A stretch of DNA of 20,838 bases. Origin: a virus. The translations under genes were made by a program, and so were the position numbers. The stretch is taken from the IMG/VR virus record IMGVR_UViG_3300023179_000604, positions 1 to 20,838 of that record. One strand, written 5' to 3'. The notes below the pieces were generated by a model that searched no databases, had not been told where the DNA came from, and saw nothing but the letters and a program-made list of their open reading frames with translations. Positions 407-11,878 of this stretch are shown one piece after another; the first letter of the stretch is position 1; the number at the start of each line of letters is the position of its first letter.

Positions 407-970
407 TCAAAGAATTACAGTGAGCCTCCTGCGGAGAGACTCGCTCACAACCTCAGCGCTTCCGGCCTTTGAGCTCCATGAGATAGACACATCGTCATCT
501 GTTATGGGACCACCCGCTGCCCACGTGTAACAGCTTCGTGCGCTGTGGCACTTGAAATGGTGCATCCAGCAGTAACCGAGGCGACCATCCTCGTCCTCAA
601 CCTCGCCCGGCATGCACCTCAACATCCTGGGTGACACATCGAAGGCGACACAGTTTCCGCATCGTGACTGCTTGGCGACATCAGCTGTCGTTCCCCAGTG
701 CTCTGCCAAGTGCTCCCAGTAATCCTCGTCAGAGAGGTTTAGTGGTCCGTACTCAATGTAATCAGACTCAATTGCAGAGTTCCTATTTTTTGTATTGAGC
801 TCTAGGTCCTGTGTGGGCAGAGGACAGCTGTCACCGGTGCCCTCTTCGCGAGATTTGGAATCTGATCCCTCCGGAGAACTGCTGTAGAAGTTTATGGTGA
901 CAGGCTTCCTGAAAGTGATATCGTCTATCTCACTGAGGGCCTCTCTGACTATCTGACGTAAACTTTTCAT
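407..970 (-). CDS. Cys-rich phage protein with shared N-terminal leader
   Basis: 187 residues. The ATG at 970 follows AAGAGG with 7-base spacing. Residues 1-15 (MKSLRQIVREALSEI) form the amphipathic leader shared with five other proteins in this cluster. Residues about 25-70 are low-complexity and polar. The C-terminal domain carries six cysteines in the order C104-x2-C107, C119, C134, C141, C147, ending in SCYTWAAGGPI. This pattern resembles short Cys-rich domains of large marine phages that are sometimes annotated as HiPIP-like; four of the cysteines could bind a metal or an iron-sulfur cluster, but this is not shown. The C-terminus SLRRRLTVIL is amphipathic. It is the last leader-bearing gene before the endolysin. 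Function unknown. Confidence 0.7.
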   Translation of the reverse strand: MKSLRQIVREALSEIDDITFRKPVTINFYSSSPEGSDSKSREEGTGDSCPLPTQDLELNTKNRNSAIESDYIEYGPLNLSDEDYWEHLAEHWGTTADVAKQSRCGNCVAFDVSPRMLRCMPGEVEDEDGRLGYCWMHHFKCHSARSCYTWAAGGPITDDDVSISWSSKAGSAEVVSESLRRRLTVIL

Positions 971-994
971 TGCATGCCTCTTGGACTCATGACA

Positions 995-1339
995 CTACAT
1001 ATATTTTACAGCGAGTCCCTCTGAGAGCATCCAGTCATTTATGCACTGGCCCTCAACCCACACCTCACCGAGCCAGCGACCGTACTTCTCACGGGAGTCC
1101 TTGATAGTCTTGAGGATCACGGATTTTCCTAGGACCCTTTCTCGAAGTGCATCACGAGCTGCAAGTCCCCTCTCCTGTGTGCTGCCTCGAAGCTCAGGTG
1201 TATTGATGCGGACTAACCGAACAGTCTGCTTCCTCAGGACGACTGAGAAGCCGAGGTCGATGTCGACCGTCAGTGTGTCTCCGTCGTACACAGAGGTGAC
1301 ATTGGCTCGGTAGGTGTACAGACTGGACTCATCTGCCAC
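995..1339 (-). CDS. Staphylococcal nuclease (SNase)-like thermonuclease
   Basis: 114 residues, essentially one SNase (OB-fold) domain. SNases are calcium-dependent phosphodiesterases that cut DNA and RNA. The catalytic pattern is visible: DGDT at residues 19-22 (Asp21), Arg41 and N-T-P-E at 46-49 (Thr47, Glu49), and KYGR at 85-88 (Arg88). These match Asp21, Arg35, Glu43 and Arg87 of the S. aureus enzyme; Asn46 replaces its Asp40. There is no signal peptide and no shared leader. The GTG start at 1339 is preceded by GAGGAG at good spacing and overlaps the end of the upstream gene by 11 bases, so the two are probably translationally coupled. A role in degrading host nucleic acid or in packaging is possible. 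Family assignment is strong. Confidence 0.85.
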   Translation of the reverse strand: MADESSLYTYRANVTSVYDGDTLTVDIDLGFSVVLRKQTVRLVRINTPELRGSTQERGLAARDALRERVLGKSVILKTIKDSREKYGRWLGEVWVEGQCINDWMLSEGLAVKYM

Positions 1340-1898
1340 GCTTCATCTCCTCTGGGCGAGGCGCAAAGAAGCTCGGGGCCTTTGCAGCAGGCTTTGGCTT
1401 CTTGACAGGAGCAGGTGCAGGCTCTGTCGCCGGAGTAGGAGTCGGACTCCTCACACTCTTGGTCTTTGGAAGAGGTGACGGCTCGAAGTCTGTGTCCTCA
1501 TCTTCCTCTTCGGGCGCTGACTCACTTCCCACGGGAACATCATCGTACGCCTTGATGGAGATCATGTCAACCTCGGGAATCTCCAGCATGTTCTCCTGCA
1601 GCTCATCACGAGTGATAACTCCGTCATCGTTGAACTTCAGCCTGATGAAGACTTTGGACATTGAGTCCTCGGCGCTCTTCACTGTGTCGAGCTGAGTCAC
1701 AGTGACGACGCCGGGGAGCCCTCGAATATCGGTGAGGACATCTGGAATATTCCGTGCATCGGCGCTAGCTCTGGACCGGTCCTTCATCTTGAGCCTGACT
1801 GTCATGTCAATGGCGACGATATCCTTGACAGACTCACGCAGAAGCCCTGCCATCTTCAGCAGGCGGTACCTCTCGAGGTGGCGTATCGAGTCACTCAA
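1329..1898 (-). CDS. Unknown protein: alpha/beta domain plus acidic and Pro/Ala/Lys-rich tail
   Basis: 189 residues. The TTG start at 1898 is supported by an AGGGGG purine run about 7 bases upstream. Residues about 25-118 read as a beta-alpha-beta-beta-alpha-beta domain of ferredoxin/ACT type (strands DMTVRLKMK, VVTVTQLDTV, SKVFIRLKF, VDMISIKAY), but no ligand-binding motif is evident. Residues about 125-140 are strongly acidic (EEEDEDTDFE), followed by a Pro/Ala/Lys low-complexity tail, as in flexible linkers or DNA-contacting tails. The N-terminus (KMAGLLRESVKDIV) is amphipathic but matches the cluster's leader only weakly. It sits between the Dps-like gene and the SNase gene and overlaps the latter. 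Function unknown. Confidence 0.65.
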   Translation of the reverse strand: MSDSIRHLERYRLLKMAGLLRESVKDIVAIDMTVRLKMKDRSRASADARNIPDVLTDIRGLPGVVTVTQLDTVKSAEDSMSKVFIRLKFNDDGVITRDELQENMLEIPEVDMISIKAYDDVPVGSESAPEEEDEDTDFEPSPLPKTKSVRSPTPTPATEPAPAPVKKPKPAAKAPSFFAPRPEEMKRGR

Positions 1899-1902
1899 GA
1901 GA

Positions 1903-2469
1903 TCACCCCCTCGTGCGCTGCTGGAGCAGGTAGATGTACTTCGTGTAGTCGTTCGCCACAGCGGCTAGGAAGTCGTTGAGACCGAGAGCCAGCTGCCCGG
2001 ATGCCTCGAGGCGTGAGAACACTTCCTCTACGTGAGCATTGAGGTCCCGCATGATCTCGAGGCCCGTGGAAGCGATCGAGGCGGCCGAGGCCCCGGAGGG
2101 AGAGGGATACTTCTCCATCTTCTCCAGCGCGCGCGCCATCACTGCGTGCGGACAGACCACATCCTCGCTGCCTGTTAAGCCGACAGCCTTCTCAGCGGCG
2201 CCGTCGTAGTCTTCGATGAGAGCCTCATAGATCATGCCGTAGAGGTCCTTGTGATCTCCAATGAATCCGGTGCCCTTGGTCACGTGGTGAGCAGCGTGGA
2301 ACCAGACGCTCGCACTCCGGAGGCAAGCGAGAAGGCCCATCATCTCCTCCTCGAGAACAGCATCACCTCCCACCTCTGCTCCAAGAGACACCGGGAGCGA
2401 GTCAACTGAGAGGACTGCAGCTAGCTCCTCTTTGATAACCCTCTGCAGCTGCTTACTGCTCATTCTCAT
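1903..2469 (-). CDS. Ferritin/Dps-like helical protein with shared N-terminal leader
   Basis: 188 residues. The ATG at 2469 has GGAG 7 bases upstream and overlaps the upstream stop (ATGA), so it is translationally coupled. The leader is residues 1-20 (MRMSSKQLQRVIKEELAAVL). The body reads as a four-helix bundle. WFHAAHHVTKGTGFIGDH (about 56-73), followed by LYGMIYEALIEDYDGAAEKA, has the spacing of the Dps/ferritin helix A-B region, with His61/His62, Asp72, Glu82 and Asp87 as possible metal ligands. Dps proteins store iron and protect DNA by ferroxidase activity. Those ligands are inferred from spacing alone. A Dps-like protein carrying the cluster leader could be virion-associated, but this is speculative. 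An alternative is a helical structural protein unrelated to ferritin. Confidence 0.65.
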   Translation of the reverse strand: MRMSSKQLQRVIKEELAAVLSVDSLPVSLGAEVGGDAVLEEEMMGLLACLRSASVWFHAAHHVTKGTGFIGDHKDLYGMIYEALIEDYDGAAEKAVGLTGSEDVVCPHAVMARALEKMEKYPSPSGASAASIASTGLEIMRDLNAHVEEVFSRLEASGQLALGLNDFLAAVANDYTKYIYLLQQRTRG

Positions 2470-3962
2470 AGATCACTCCTCACGGGGTCTCCCATGTCAA
2501 ACTTAGACATCTTGTAGTCCATGTAATCGCTCACTGTCGCAATGGTCTGGTAGGCCATGGCGACCTTCGACTGGAGCCACTCAGGCAGCGTGTCGTCGTC
2601 AGTGAGGCGGTCCGACATCGACTGCGCCTTCTTTGCGATCTGGAAGAGCTGACCACGGGCCATTGAGGCCGATCCACCGTCCCCGAAGTAGCGTCCGTGG
2701 ACGAGTGGCTCGTGCATCATGTCGCCCGCCATCGTGTCTCCGCTGAGCACGCCTCCCGCCATCTCACCGCACTCGTACATCATTTCCTCGTGCTCCATTG
2801 GGTCGAAGTCCTGGTCGAGGACGCTGTACATGATGTAGTCGTGCACCGCGTCGAGGTGCTCGGCGGCGGAGTTCACCTTGCTCTCGATCCAGGGCTCGGC
2901 ATCGTCCCACGGGGAGGCGAGTCCCGCGAGCTCCTCAGCCTTGGCGGCCAGCCGCTTCAGGTTTCCCAGGAGCATGTAGCCCGGGTGCTCCTCGTCGGGG
3001 GCGTCGAAGGGGCCTGTCTCAGAGGGGCCCATCTTTTCAGCGCTGTGGTCCATATCGTGCGCATGATCAGGGTAGGGCATCATCTCCTCTTCACCGCACT
3101 CGATGAGACGAGACTGCAGGGCATCACGGGCCTCTGAAATCACATGAGATGAAGCTCGTGATGATCCTGTAATGGATCGTGAAACATATGCGTGAAGCGG
3201 GTGTGAGCAGTCCGAGAGCGCCTCGAGGATGACAGTGGACTGAGTTGAGCGAAGAGCTAACGAGAATCTACTCATGAAGTTCCTGCTTTCATTTTGCGGT
3301 CCCTTTTCAGATGCAAATTTCCGACGAAGATCTTTAAGTTGTTGTTCCTCATCTGAAGTAAGCTCACCCTGAGCTCCAGTATATGATTTTTTTCCTACAT
3401 TTTTTTCTATCTTTTTCGGTGCAGATGGAGCGCCAGAAGTAGCTTGCTTCATCATGACTTCAGGACTACTTTTTCTTAAGTTTAGATCTTTAATTCTAGA
3501 GTATTCATCCGTTGGAAAATTCTTGCTTTTAACAAGTTCATTTAATTTTTCAGAAGAAAGATTTTCTATCTTATCTACCATTTTATACCATAAATTAGCT
3601 AAATTATCGTTATATAGAATAGAAATATCTTCAAGATTACCTGGATTCTTTCTTGAATTTTGAATAAACTCTCTTAAATTGTTGCTAACAGCTGTCGCAT
3701 TAAGTTCATTATTTGCAAATTGATCAATATTGTCTAATAACTTTTTTAGACTTTCAACATGATTTCTAAGCAATGATTTAACTTTAAAATCTATAGCTGA
3801 GGATCCAAGAACTCCTGATAATTCTTCAGCAGCGGCGCGGTCGCGCTCAGATTTTGCTTTAGCAGCTTTTGATCTAAGATCAGCTAATTTTTCTTTATAA
3901 TTTAATCCCTCTAATAGGGTCTCAGCTATAATGTTTCTCAACTCTTCTCTGCTAGCTCTCAT
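2466..3962 (-). CDS. Chimeric structural-type protein: leader, AT-rich helical half, duplicated C-terminal module
   Basis: 498 residues from the ATG at 3962, which has AGGA 7 bases upstream; an in-frame GTG at 3968 is less likely. Residues 1-20 (MRASREELRNIIAETLLEGL) are the cluster leader. Residues about 20-225 are charged and helical and are encoded by strikingly AT-rich DNA (about 3290-3962). The rest is GC-rich. The C-terminal part contains two copies of one roughly 55-residue helical module at about 326-382 and 431-488, both of the form L-x(n)-A-x-K-A ... W-[IL]-[EQ]-S-K-V ... DY[IM]xY. This kind of module is familiar in T4-like cyanophage virion proteins. Acidic Met/His-rich linkers separate the modules. 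It is probably a virion or scaffold-associated protein; the exact role is unknown. Confidence 0.72.
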   Translation of the reverse strand: MRASREELRNIIAETLLEGLNYKEKLADLRSKAAKAKSERDRAAAEELSGVLGSSAIDFKVKSLLRNHVESLKKLLDNIDQFANNELNATAVSNNLREFIQNSRKNPGNLEDISILYNDNLANLWYKMVDKIENLSSEKLNELVKSKNFPTDEYSRIKDLNLRKSSPEVMMKQATSGAPSAPKKIEKNVGKKSYTGAQGELTSDEEQQLKDLRRKFASEKGPQNESRNFMSRFSLALRSTQSTVILEALSDCSHPLHAYVSRSITGSSRASSHVISEARDALQSRLIECGEEEMMPYPDHAHDMDHSAEKMGPSETGPFDAPDEEHPGYMLLGNLKRLAAKAEELAGLASPWDDAEPWIESKVNSAAEHLDAVHDYIMYSVLDQDFDPMEHEEMMYECGEMAGGVLSGDTMAGDMMHEPLVHGRYFGDGGSASMARGQLFQIAKKAQSMSDRLTDDDTLPEWLQSKVAMAYQTIATVSDYMDYKMSKFDMGDPVRSDL

Positions 3963-4052
3963 GATCACATCCTGAGTTAATTACTATACTGGAGGCGCCG
4001 AATCAATAAATATTCGAGACGTACAGGGTATTCTGAGAAATTGGGGCTGACA

Positions 4053-4472
4053 TCATTTATTTACATCATCATTGATGACAGAAACAGTGATTCCTTGCCT
4101 AAGCAGAGCTTGGTAAATGAATTTATCTAGAGGCTTGGGCTCACGATTAAAACTAGAAATAGTGTCAGCAACAGCTTTTATAGCGTCACCTTTAAATTTA
4201 CTGGTTGTTGTAATTTGTATCGCAGGATTAGAGTCTTTTTTAAGCTTATTAATTAATTCTGTCTCTCCGAGGCCTTTAATAGACTGGAGATAGGCTTCTG
4301 ACTTATCTGATCGCGCCAGAGCTCTTTGTTCATCCGAAGAGAGTTCTGTGGGCTTCTCACCAGGTTCCGGCATGCGGGGATTTTTATCCCAATCCCTTAT
4401 CTCTTCGATCTTTTCTGAATGTGTGATTGCCTCTCTGATGACCCTACGAAGCTGCCCTACTGTGATTCTCAT
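4053..4472 (-). CDS. Small unknown protein with shared N-terminal leader
   Basis: 139 residues from the ATG at 4472, chosen over an in-frame GTG at 4502 because AAGGA lies 8 bases upstream of the ATG and because this start places the leader (MRITVGQLRRVIREAITHSE) at the N-terminus, as in its neighbours. The body is charged and mostly helical. A segment ELSSDEQRALARSDKSE near residue 40 echoes ELTSDEEQQLKDLRRKFASE in the neighbouring 498-residue protein. Its coding DNA is AT-rich like the first half of that neighbour, so both may share an origin. There are no recognised catalytic motifs. Function unknown. Confidence 0.65.
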   Translation of the reverse strand: MRITVGQLRRVIREAITHSEKIEEIRDWDKNPRMPEPGEKPTELSSDEQRALARSDKSEAYLQSIKGLGETELINKLKKDSNPAIQITTTSKFKGDAIKAVADTISSFNREPKPLDKFIYQALLRQGITVSVINDDVNK

Positions 4473-4533
4473 ATTTGTGTTCCTTGAAGATTGTAAATTC
4501 ACAGTCTAATTATCTCTTTTCAACCGGTAAATA

Positions 4534-4845
4534 TTAGATTCGAAGCAGGAAGTGGGGCGGTATCATCTTGAAAGGGCCGCTGATGAGTCCTCGGAGACCC
4601 GCGTCGTCGATTCCAGCCTCATCCAGCGCGTCCTCGATGAGCCGCAGGTGATCCGGTGATCCTGGGCACATCTGTCCGAGCATGTTGGGGCTCATCTCAG
4701 AGGCTTTCCGCTTCAAAACGGCCTCAAATGCCCTCTTCGGAGCTTCCTTTGCTCGATCGTACTCAGCACCAGCTCCTATTTTTGTCTCGATGAGTCTCTG
4801 ATGCTTGAGCTCTTCTCTGATAAGATGTCTGAGATGTCTGCTCAT
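4534..4845 (-). CDS. Small unknown protein with shared N-terminal leader
   Basis: 103 residues. The ATG at 4845 is preceded by AGGAAG within the end of the upstream gene, whose stop is one base away. A longer reading frame starting at 4890 would overlap the upstream gene and bury the leader, so it is rejected. The leader is MSRHLRHLIREELKHQRLIE. The body is helical, with a segment SEMSPNMLGQMCPGSPDHLR in the middle and a hydrophobic C-terminus (PFKMIPPHFLLRI). It is probably coupled to the cupin-fusion gene upstream. Not recognised; function unknown. Confidence 0.62.
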   Translation of the reverse strand: MSRHLRHLIREELKHQRLIETKIGAGAEYDRAKEAPKRAFEAVLKRKASEMSPNMLGQMCPGSPDHLRLIEDALDEAGIDDAGLRGLISGPFKMIPPHFLLRI

Positions 4846-4846
4846 G

Positions 4847-5668
4847 TCACTTCTTCCTGTGCTTCTGAACTTTTTTCCACTCGGCAGCATCCACTTTTCG
4901 TGCTTTGCCGCCCCTTATAAAACTATTCACTCTTCCCATTGCCCAACCATGCTGGGGAACACCCTGCCTGTGTCCTGTGAGCCAGGCAGCTAGGCCCTTC
5001 CTGTACACTCCGGTGAGTGCGCCGAGCGGCATGTTCGCCTTCTCAGCCTTCTTTTTAAGAGTCTCACGTGTCTTCTTGCTAAGCTTCTCCTCGAGAATGT
5101 CCTCTACGATGAGATCAAGTGCTTCATCGATGATGGAGTCGAGGTGGGACTCGGCAGACTCGCTCTTTTGACCCATTTTCTTTTTGTACGTCTTATCAGC
5201 AGTCCACTCGTCGTAGCAGCTTTTTGGACGAGGATCCTTTGAGCACTTTTCAATCTCGTAGGCCATTTGCCTATTGCTCTTCGTCTGTCTAGTCTTTTTA
5301 CCGACGTAGTAGTCTGACTTACCGGGAAGCTTCTTCTTCCTCCTCTTTCTCTCTGTGAGAGTTTTTTCGTCGATATTCTCTATCATGACGCTAAGTGAGC
5401 CGGCGCCCTTCTCCATTATCACTCGATGCCACGACTCTGCAGGTATCAGATACTCCTCGCCCTCGAGCAGCCGCACAGGGAGCTCTCCATCGAGCTGCAG
5501 CAGCCAGCCGCGGCCCTCGAGGACGCTGACCGATCGGTGCTCACGGTCCCTGTGCCACACAAGCTCCTCAGAGGATGTGTCACGTGAGAACTCCCTGAGG
5601 ACAGATGAACTGGAGATCCGTGTCTCTGTGAAGGGATACTGTGAATCGGGCCTTTTTGTTGGTATCAT
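4847..5668 (-). CDS. Cupin domain fused to a DUF5824-like phage domain
   Basis: 273 residues. The N-terminal domain (about 25-97) is a cupin beta-barrel. Motif 1 is around W38-H39 ... H44 with EGRG at 51-54. Motif 2 is G70-x5-P76-x4-H81. Cupins bind metals or sugars and act as isomerases, dioxygenases or structural proteins; with few ligands visible, catalysis is uncertain. A linker (about 105-195) contains a Cys pair (C142, C151) and a helical stretch (HLDSIIDEALDLIVEDILEE) that resembles the leader motif but is internal. The C-terminal domain (about 196-262), with LSKKTRETLKKKAEKA and VYRKGLAAWLTGHR, matches the phage domain known as DUF5824, whose function is unknown. The fusion suggests an adaptor or virion-associated role. 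The start lacks a strong ribosome binding site. Confidence 0.72.
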   Translation of the reverse strand: MIPTKRPDSQYPFTETRISSSSVLREFSRDTSSEELVWHRDREHRSVSVLEGRGWLLQLDGELPVRLLEGEEYLIPAESWHRVIMEKGAGSLSVMIENIDEKTLTERKRRKKKLPGKSDYYVGKKTRQTKSNRQMAYEIEKCSKDPRPKSCYDEWTADKTYKKKMGQKSESAESHLDSIIDEALDLIVEDILEEKLSKKTRETLKKKAEKANMPLGALTGVYRKGLAAWLTGHRQGVPQHGWAMGRVNSFIRGGKARKVDAAEWKKVQKHRKK

Positions 5669-5702
5669 GATATTACGAATCTCTCATCAGTGTGCAATGT
5701 CT

Positions 5703-6098
5703 TCACTTCTTCCGCTTTTTGGTCTTCCTACGCCTCTTGAGGCCTGGGATGCCGGGATCCCTTGTGGGTCGGCCGCTGCTGTCCAGGTTGTAGAGGGCAG
5801 GATTCTTAATTGATCCGCCCATCTGGTAGTAGTTGACTCCGCCCTTGTTACCAATAAGCTCCTCAGTGATGTGCTTGTGAATGACTCGTCTAAGAATCTC
5901 TTCTACCCTCTCGCTCTCTACGACGTCATCTTCATCATCTGTCTCTGTAAAGAGAGGGTCAGGATCATTTACACCTGGAGGAGCACCGTCTGGAACTGCA
6001 TCTCCTGGGCTGATAAATTCTACGCCGAAACGTTCAACGCCACGCTCCTGTAGAATCTCACGTATCACTGCCTCAAGTGTTGTGTTATTTTTTCTCAT
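5703..6098 (-). CDS. Unknown protein with N-terminal leader, internal leader-like helix and basic tail
   Basis: 131 residues from the ATG at 6098, whose first base overlaps the upstream stop (TGATG), typical of translational coupling; an in-frame GTG lies at 6107. The leader is MRKNNTTLEAVIREILQERG. A second, similar helix (VEEILRRVIHKHITEEL) follows at about residues 64-80 after an acidic spacer. The C-terminus is strongly basic (KRRRKTKKRKK), as in DNA-binding or packaged proteins. Between them is GSIKNPALYNLDSSGRPTRD, which looks unstructured. Not recognised. The two leader-like helices suggest either a duplicated targeting signal or a dimerisation helix. Confidence 0.62.
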   Translation of the reverse strand: MRKNNTTLEAVIREILQERGVERFGVEFISPGDAVPDGAPPGVNDPDPLFTETDDEDDVVESERVEEILRRVIHKHITEELIGNKGGVNYYQMGGSIKNPALYNLDSSGRPTRDPGIPGLKRRRKTKKRKK

Positions 6099-10315: not shown

Positions 10316-10327
10316 ATTGTCTCTTAG

Positions 10328-10410
10328 TAGGCCGGGTGGGACTCGAACCCACAAACCCGAAGGCGGTCGCTTATGAGGCGACTGCGTTTAACCAATTCCG
10401 CCACCAGCCC
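10328..10410 (-). tRNA. Class II tRNA with leucine-type body and CAT anticodon
   Basis: An 83-nt cloverleaf on the minus strand. The acceptor is GGGCTGG / CCGGCCT with A73. The D arm matches bacterial tRNA-Leu almost base for base (GGTGGCGGAATTGGT). The anticodon stem is GTCGC/GCGAC with loop CTCATAA, giving anticodon CAT. The 13-nt variable arm forms a short stem with a TTCG loop. The T arm is GTGGG / CCCAC with TTCGAGT. CCA is not encoded. The class II arm, A73 and D arm are leucine features, yet CAU is normally Met or, after lysidine modification, Ile(AUA). A TilS homologue is encoded about 3.2 kb upstream. What amino acid it carries is unresolved. Confidence 0.85.
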
Positions 10411-10543
10411 GTATCTCACCAACATCTGAATCATATCAACTAGGGGCGTTAGTTTATAAGCCTTGATGATCTTTTTATGAGGATTTTGAAGTACTGTGAC
10501 CATCAATGCAGAAATGACATGAGGCATCATGTGTGCCACTTTG

Positions 10544-10630
10544 AGGAGCAGAGAGGATTCGAACCTCCGGTACCTTTTACAGTACAAACGCGTTCCAGGC
10601 GTTCCGTTTAAACCACTCACGCACTGCTCC
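10544..10630 (-). tRNA. tRNA-Ser(GGA)
   Basis: An 87-nt class II cloverleaf on the minus strand. The acceptor is GGAGCAG/CTGCTCC, the anticodon stem AACGC/GCGTT with loop CTGGAAC, giving anticodon GGA (reads UCC and UCU). The long variable arm pairs GTAC with GTAC, as expected for serine. The T loop is TTCGAAT. CCA is not encoded, and the discriminator base is U rather than the usual G73. It lies upstream of the CAT tRNA, probably on the same transcript; the 133 bases between them (10411-10543) show no convincing gene. Confidence 0.9.
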
Positions 10631-10726: not shown

Positions 10727-10750
10727 GCCCCTGTGATTATTTATGGGCAT

Positions 10751-11878
10751 ATGACTTTTAAAATTGGAATCACGTTCGATCCACCTGATACTCCTATGGG
10801 CATGTTCAATAACGGGGTCAGGCAAAATGCCCTCTACCTCGCAGAGCTCCTCATGAACATGGAGTATGATGTGCACCTCATTGTGCAGAAAGACAAGATG
10901 GTAAAGGTCAAGGGCCTAGTGGGCTTTGACGAGAGGCTCAGCTGCTCAAACCACGAAAGCATGCACGAGGACAACTACGATATCATCATTCAGGTTGGAT
11001 TCCAGCTTCTCAGGTCTGACTTCGAGAACCTGAAGCAGACGAAGTCAAAGCTCGTATATTACAACTGCGGGTCGAACTACGTCATAGACATGGAGCACTT
11101 TCTATTTGGCACCACAGTGGTCGAGCCACTTTATTCTCAGCTGGTGGACATGCACCCGGTGTTTGACCAGGTCTGGTCTATTCCACAGATGGAAATGAAC
11201 AGGTCGTACTATGAGACGCTGTACAGGACAGAGGTGAAAATTGTTCCTTTTATCTGGTCGCATGCAGCCACAGACCACCTCCAGAAGATCAGTCCTGATA
11301 GTCTCTTGTATAGAGTGAAGAACACTCCCATGAAGGCTGCGATATTCGAGCCGAATCTAAACGTCGTCAAGTGGTCATTCCCTGCGCTGCTGGTGTGCGA
11401 GAACGCCTACAGGAAAGACAAGTGTCTGGGCCACGTGTACATCACCAACATGCCGAAGTCAAAGGAAGATGAGACGCGCCACGCGAGGCAGTTCACAAAG
11501 CTGGTGAAATCTATCGACCTCTTCAACGATAAGAAGATCAGTGTTGAGAGCAGGTACAGTACCCTCATATTCATGATGAAATATGCAGATATCGCTGTAT
11601 CCCACCAGTGGGGCAATCCCCTGAACTACCTCTATCTCGACCTCGCCTGGATGGGCTGGCCAATCGTTCACAATGCACACCTGTGCAAGGATATTGGCTA
11701 CTACTACGAGGATTTCGATTACAAGATGGGCGGAGAGGTGCTATCAGAGGCTGTTAGGAACCACGCTGGAGATAAGGGATACCTCGAGAGGCAGCGTGCT
11801 CTGATCGATCGGTACTTGCCAACGAACAGGGCGCTCCAGGATGCCTACAGGAAGCTGATCGAAGATCTGTTGGGTTGA
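10751..11878 (+). CDS. DUF2827-type (GT-B fold) glycosyltransferase-like protein
   Basis: 375 residues from the ATG at 10751; a GTG at 10733 would add six residues. It is the only supported gene on the plus strand. Two Rossmann-like halves can be seen. The N-terminal half begins KIGITFDPPD, then MFNNGVRQNALYLAELL, a sequence typical of DUF2827. A turn at IFEPNLNVVKW begins the second half, which contains YADIAVSHQWGNPLNYLYLD and WMGWPIVHN, equivalent to the acceptor/donor cleft of GT-B enzymes. DUF2827 proteins occur in bacteria and viruses and are thought to transfer sugars; the substrate is unknown. Phage glycosylation of DNA, capsid or host surface are possibilities. The isolated, opposite orientation suggests a moron-like acquisition. 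Confidence 0.78.
   Translation: MTFKIGITFDPPDTPMGMFNNGVRQNALYLAELLMNMEYDVHLIVQKDKMVKVKGLVGFDERLSCSNHESMHEDNYDIIIQVGFQLLRSDFENLKQTKSKLVYYNCGSNYVIDMEHFLFGTTVVEPLYSQLVDMHPVFDQVWSIPQMEMNRSYYETLYRTEVKIVPFIWSHAATDHLQKISPDSLLYRVKNTPMKAAIFEPNLNVVKWSFPALLVCENAYRKDKCLGHVYITNMPKSKEDETRHARQFTKLVKSIDLFNDKKISVESRYSTLIFMMKYADIAVSHQWGNPLNYLYLDLAWMGWPIVHNAHLCKDIGYYYEDFDYKMGGEVLSEAVRNHAGDKGYLERQRALIDRYLPTNRALQDAYRKLIEDLLG

Follow-up and report, generated by a model that had tools for sequence, protein, structure and literature searches.

An N-terminal leader common to unrelated phage proteins as a probable capsid-targeting propeptide of T4-related phages

The phage T4 internal proteins IPII and IPIII begin with MKTYQEFIAEA. 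Mutagenesis of the IPIII tag has assigned residues 4 and 7 mainly to targeting and residues 8 and 10 to processing, and T4 gp21 cuts after L/I-X-E (PMC9026906). In systems of the SPN3US/phiKZ type, cleavage occurs after A-x-E or S-x-E, and the propeptides are mostly longer than 100 residues (PMC5694885). In phage P1, the N-terminal 30 residues of DarB are sufficient to bring a reporter into the head (PMC9024508). Here, we analyze a viral locus in which six neighboring genes begin with variants of one short leader, and compare this leader with the described systems.

Leaders in the window and the proteins that carry them

The window is the whole stretch of 20,838 nucleotides analyzed here, from the virus record IMGVR_UViG_3300023179_000604. 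The pattern L-x-x-[IVL]-[IVL]-x-E is found within the first 20 residues of 6 of the 34 window genes (starts 970, 2469, 3962, 4472, 4845, and 6098), all of them on the minus strand. Given two internal matches in 5610 positions, only 0.17 N-terminal matches would be expected for the 34 genes (Poisson P = 2.8e-8), and in 20,000 trials with shuffled N-termini, the pattern never appeared in more than three window genes. The initial annotation, which had proposed a single amphipathic leader common to six neighboring proteins, is thus confirmed at each of the six starts. Its further claim that the bodies bear no resemblance to each other also holds: protein A is iron-sulfur-like, protein B is Dps-like, protein C contains a domain shared with cyanophages, and no annotated homologue of proteins D, E, and F was found in the searches made. 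The near-invariant leader positions L8, I11, I12, and E14 (Phi-x-x-Phi-Phi-x-E; consensus numbering) have the same spacing as residues 4, 7, 8, and 10 of IPIII, and in protein A they are residues 4, 7, 8, and 10. The features of the window are as follows, with homologues taken from a 147 kb relative, contig G001 (IMGVR_UViG_3300035670_000028).

929..970, minus strand: leader of protein A, MKSLRQIVREALSE; probable cut after E10; gene 407-970, with a body like high-potential iron-sulfur proteins
2422..2469, minus strand: leader of protein B, MRMSSKQLQRVIKEEL; probable cut after E14; gene 1903-2469, with a Dps-like body; leader conserved in two relatives
3909..3962, minus strand: leader of protein C, MRASREELRNIIAETLLE; Phi-x-E after E14 and E18; gene 2466-3962
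4428..4472, minus strand: leader of protein D, MRITVGQLRRVIREA; gene 4053-4472
4786..4845, minus strand: leader of protein E, MSRHLRHLIREELKHQRLIE; Phi-x-E after E11 and E20; gene 4534-4845
6045..6098, minus strand: leader of protein F, MRKNNTTLEAVIREILQE; gene 5703-6098
5859..5894, minus strand: apparent decayed former leader inside protein F, LRRVIHKHITEE; aligned in the G001 homologue with LRLIIREILLEE, the N-terminal leader there
1830..1898, minus strand: different N-terminal tag on gene 1329-1898, LSDSIRHLERYRLLKMAGLLRES; ends LLRE-S; the G001 relative has KHAGLLSES
4847..5668, minus strand: cupin and DUF5824 protein; internal leader-like stretch LDSIIDEALDLIVEDILEE directly before DUF5824, no N-terminal leader

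The Cys-rich body of protein A matches phage proteins annotated as 'high potential iron-sulfur protein', and A is an unusual predicted head cargo; its predicted structure was too poor to be used and was discarded (mean pLDDT 40). Protein B is distantly Dps-like, with a PHROG match to 'DNA binding protein' and with PDB profile and Foldseek matches to Dps/ferritin, the underlying model being weak (low confidence, mean pLDDT 52); its G001 counterpart is 81% identical. The G001 homologue of protein E is 86% identical and retains the leader. The last domain of protein C is shared with cyanophages and follows leaders in the loci L088, L063, L108, L055, and L100. Compared to its surroundings, the N-terminal half of protein C (about 3001-3962) is much more AT-rich (G+C content of 39.7% in 3001-4000); the G001 homologue lacks it, suggestive of a recent acquisition of the leader plus insert. 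In the former-leader stretch inside protein F, the P1 glutamate is replaced by lysine, as judged from one homologue only, that of G001.

By analogy with T4, the initial annotation had inferred that this region would be a capsid-cargo cluster. The cluster is mixed, since it includes the SNase gene (995-1339), the cupin gene, and the 6961 gene, none of which begins with a leader. The different tag of gene 1329-1898, with its AGLLRE-S end, resembles the gp23 maturation site of related phages; as a general feature, however, AG-[LI]-[LI]-x-E-[SNATE] is represented by only 3 N-terminal cases among the 2008 genes of leader loci. Two further N-terminal occurrences of Phi-x-x-Phi-Phi-x-E, in window genes 7319 and 12768, were judged incidental, that of 7319 because the stretch belongs to the conserved body of the protein. 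The window also contains two tRNA genes near its middle (10327-10630, minus strand), Met (CAT) and Ser (GGA), and a single long plus-strand gene in the gene set used (10733-11878, 381 amino acids), with no PHROG match.

Spread of the leader and its link to a T4-type head

A degenerate DNA pattern of the leader yielded at least 120 stretches on viral contigs, often 2-5 per few kb. In 84,980 bacterial and archaeal genomes, the same pattern produced only 8 stretches, from 4 metagenome bins, in one of which the leader contig itself encodes the S77 (gp21-family) protease. From loci among the matches listed, 338 distinct leader proteins were gathered, with the consensus M-K-I-T-x-x-Q-L-[RK]-x-I-I-[KR]-E-E and with E14 in 310 of them. 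This set is biased towards the canonical form because the DNA scan, which supplied most of the loci, fixed much of the pattern and allowed only E or Q at position 14; the later protein filter left position 14 free. The bodies are highly diverse, with 262 clusters among 328 bodies and, for the 115 leader proteins compared with Pfam, only 12 families of one member each. With a relaxed leader pattern, up to 21 matches per leader contig were obtained, compared with one match in 21 random contigs and none for the reversed pattern.

The leader genes occur in tandem clusters made up of small and varied genes; they are scattered over the genome rather than confined to the vicinity of the head genes; in G001, about 15 leader-like genes are distributed along the contig. 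Two or three leaders in tandem within one reading frame, nearly all of which keep the glutamate, were found in L084, L018, L057, L072, L104, L109, L047, and L099, and some of these frames may reflect the recent loss of a stop codon between neighboring leader genes. Separately, L099:7142-7825 encodes a protein with one leader near the start and a second as its C-terminal tail. A tblastn search of phage records with the consensus leader produced no match (the query is too short), and no paper describing the leader was found in the literature searched, which did not cover most subscription journals. Flavobacterium phage immuto, an isolate with S77, carries MKKSQLRQIIKEAL and related N-termini. 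Other N-termini common to different immuto proteins (L365/L369) are [DN]L[KR]-x-FL-x-EN, in three genes, and RMQ-x-LAGIITES, in two.

We compared leader contigs of at least 48 kb with random contigs of at least 48 kb for the presence of S77. The protease was detected in 17 of 27 of the former and in 3 of 22 of the latter (Fisher P = 5e-4), with the caveat that leader contigs are on average larger than the controls. A gp23 gene occurs in exactly the same 17 leader contigs, and the T4-type terminase, portal, S77, and gp23 are encoded in one module. In at least 15 of the 17 modules, a small conserved protein that begins with a leader-like sequence (e.g. MKKSELKNIIKECVKEVIFEEG) is encoded no more than a few kb from S77; by inference, it may be a prohead core protein. 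The S77-positive random contigs lack this leader sequence; therefore, not every T4-like phage has the leader. Conversely, S77 is absent from 11 of 28 leader contigs, of which three (G001, G007, and G008) end near the expected head module, while in the other eight neither gp19 nor gp23 was detected.

Neither S77 nor gp23 was found on the window or on the incomplete 147 kb relative; for S77, this was attributed to the ends of the fragments and was not counted as absence. G001 and leader contig G006, the latter with both S77 and gp23, share a head adaptor at 63% identity, which in G006 is encoded downstream of gp23; this ties the phage of the window to the S77/gp23 leader group. At about 73.8 kb in G001 (L007:15256-15339), a small protein ends in a gp23-like stretch, LIANEIVSVQPM (63% over 30 residues); the contig itself yielded no gp23 gene.

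Related bodies occur both with and without a leader. The A-type body follows LRQIVRE in the window, WRNFLQE in L018 (contig G002, which has S77), and a related leader in L027, and is leaderless in four phages without a detected S77, namely DSL-LC01 and three Manatee Spring phages. Likewise, the Dps-like body is preceded by the leader in three leader phages but not in the S77-negative LR745208. The C-type domain, in addition to its position after leaders in five leader loci, follows a T4-like MKTFKQLREE in two S77-positive cyanophages. The initial annotation had named leaderless homologues as an observation that would refute capsid targeting. Such homologues have indeed been encountered, so far exclusively in phages lacking the protease; this favors the capsid-targeting idea instead.

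Putative cleavage sites and alternative explanations

Among the 338 leaders, 332 contain [LIVM]-x-E with the glutamate at residues 10-30. The cleavage sites suggested originally were the LxE triplets downstream of the leaders (LLEG, LIET). The best candidate is instead the leader's own [IVL]-x-E, although the original suggestion is partly upheld by the wider family, in which a second Phi-x-E is overrepresented at residues 19-22 (16% and 28% at the two most frequent offsets, against ~2% elsewhere). The cut, itself an inference, probably lies within the leader. In about 8% of the leaders, E14 is replaced by Q, S, D, or a different residue, and no compensation by more second sites was found for this loss in the 338 leaders. 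In the leader-phage gp23 proteins listed, the maturation site, which is homologous to FLTE-A of T4 gp23, reads [LVFM]-L-[RK]-E and is close to I-I-[RK]-E of the leader. The agreement in R/K at P2 between these predicted sites is suggestive only, as P2 varies in the isolate immuto.

We consider it highly probable that the leader is a T4-type capsid-targeting propeptide and that a large group of T4-related phages employs it in this variant sequence; each step from docking through packaging and cleavage to ejection into the host is inferred. The T4 analogy drawn in the initial annotation gains support from the spacing of the conserved residues, the association with S77 and gp23, the similar gp23 site, the leader-like N-terminus encoded near the protease in the head module, and the leaderless bodies of S77-negative phages. 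Under this hypothesis, the amphipathic helix L-x-x-I-I-[KR]-E would attach the individual cargo proteins to the core of the prohead, and S77 would cut after the leader glutamate and often again at the second Phi-x-E about eight residues further on. The mature cargo would thereby be left in the head alongside the DNA and would be delivered to the next host. We also favor, with distinctly less assurance, the extension that one tag loads tens of different, fast-changing proteins per head, including tandem leader-cargo polyproteins that the prohead protease would split in the capsid. No virion proteomics bearing on the leader proteins was found.

Since many partners could be bound by an amphipathic helix whose hydrophobic positions are conserved, the leader might instead serve to dock proteins to a different assembly of the phage, be it the tail, the baseplate, or a replication or transcription complex, with a glutamate that is structural and not cut. 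The leaders that lack E14 and the genome-wide distribution of leader genes, not only near head genes, are compatible with this possibility, which nevertheless appears improbable to us as it leaves unexplained the link to S77 and gp23, the likeness to the gp23 maturation site, the second Phi-x-E, and the absence of the leader from matching bodies in S77-negative phages. Removal of the leader by a protease unrelated to T4 gp21 is less plausible still. A ClpP-like protein of the 147 kb relative (L006:3549-4151) matches head maturation protease families and is the best protease candidate actually present on the contig of the nearest relative; however, this contig stops before the major capsid protein region, relatives with a complete module have S77 between portal and gp23, and the P1 glutamate of the leader fits the gp21 motif.

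The arrangement of leader genes in tandem clusters would also be expected if the conserved unit were a DNA-level cassette (a promoter, translation start, or recombination hotspot) copied before many genes, with the peptide itself idle. This explanation hardly merits consideration given the pattern of codon differences. Within one locus, 50% of pairs differ synonymously at L8 and 7% non-synonymously, and the corresponding values at I12 are 45% and 14%, whereas at leader positions 17-20 non-synonymous differences are found in 85-90% of the pairs. Upstream of the leader genes, only the Shine-Dalgarno signal is conserved. Selection thus acts on the leader as a peptide and not as DNA, and the synonymous codon changes, together with the lack of any other upstream signal, are evidence against a promoter or recombination cassette.

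If the capsid-targeting interpretation is correct, the leader identifies head cargo from sequence alone among hundreds of uncharacterized phage genes, including Dps-like and iron-sulfur-like proteins, so that the injected protein set of a virion becomes readable without other data. The small set of T4 internal proteins would then be enlarged into an extensive cargo system, and the question of which proteins large T4-related phages deliver to their hosts would become directly testable.

Comparison with known capsid-targeting systems

The P1 DarB tag differs from the leader in that the Dar proteins share no consensus and there is no separate T4-like scaffold (PMC9024508). In the propeptides of the SPN3US/phiKZ type, inner head proteins likewise have shared N-termini (e.g. 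the first 15 residues in gp53 and gp54), which are removed by the prohead protease. The leader nonetheless departs from this type, as its [ILV]-x-E sites lie within the first 25 residues and it shows neither the A-x-E or S-x-E motif nor a long propeptide.

In the sequence features tested, the leader conforms to the capsid-targeting sequence of T4 IPI, IPII, IPIII, and Alt, the substrates of gp21: both are short N-terminal tags of 10-20 residues on unrelated bodies, with an L/I-x-E motif and small variable cargo. Phages related to that of the window also encode a T4-type protease and portal as well as gp23, although the protease was not found on the window itself. The residues differ, L..II[KR]E in the leader versus Y..FIAE in T4, and the leader often has a second Phi-x-E. 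The phages that carry it are mostly metagenomic, with unknown hosts, in contrast to T4. Finally, whereas T4 has a handful of such proteins, leader contigs have up to 21 candidate cargo matches each, as well as tandem leader-cargo fusions.
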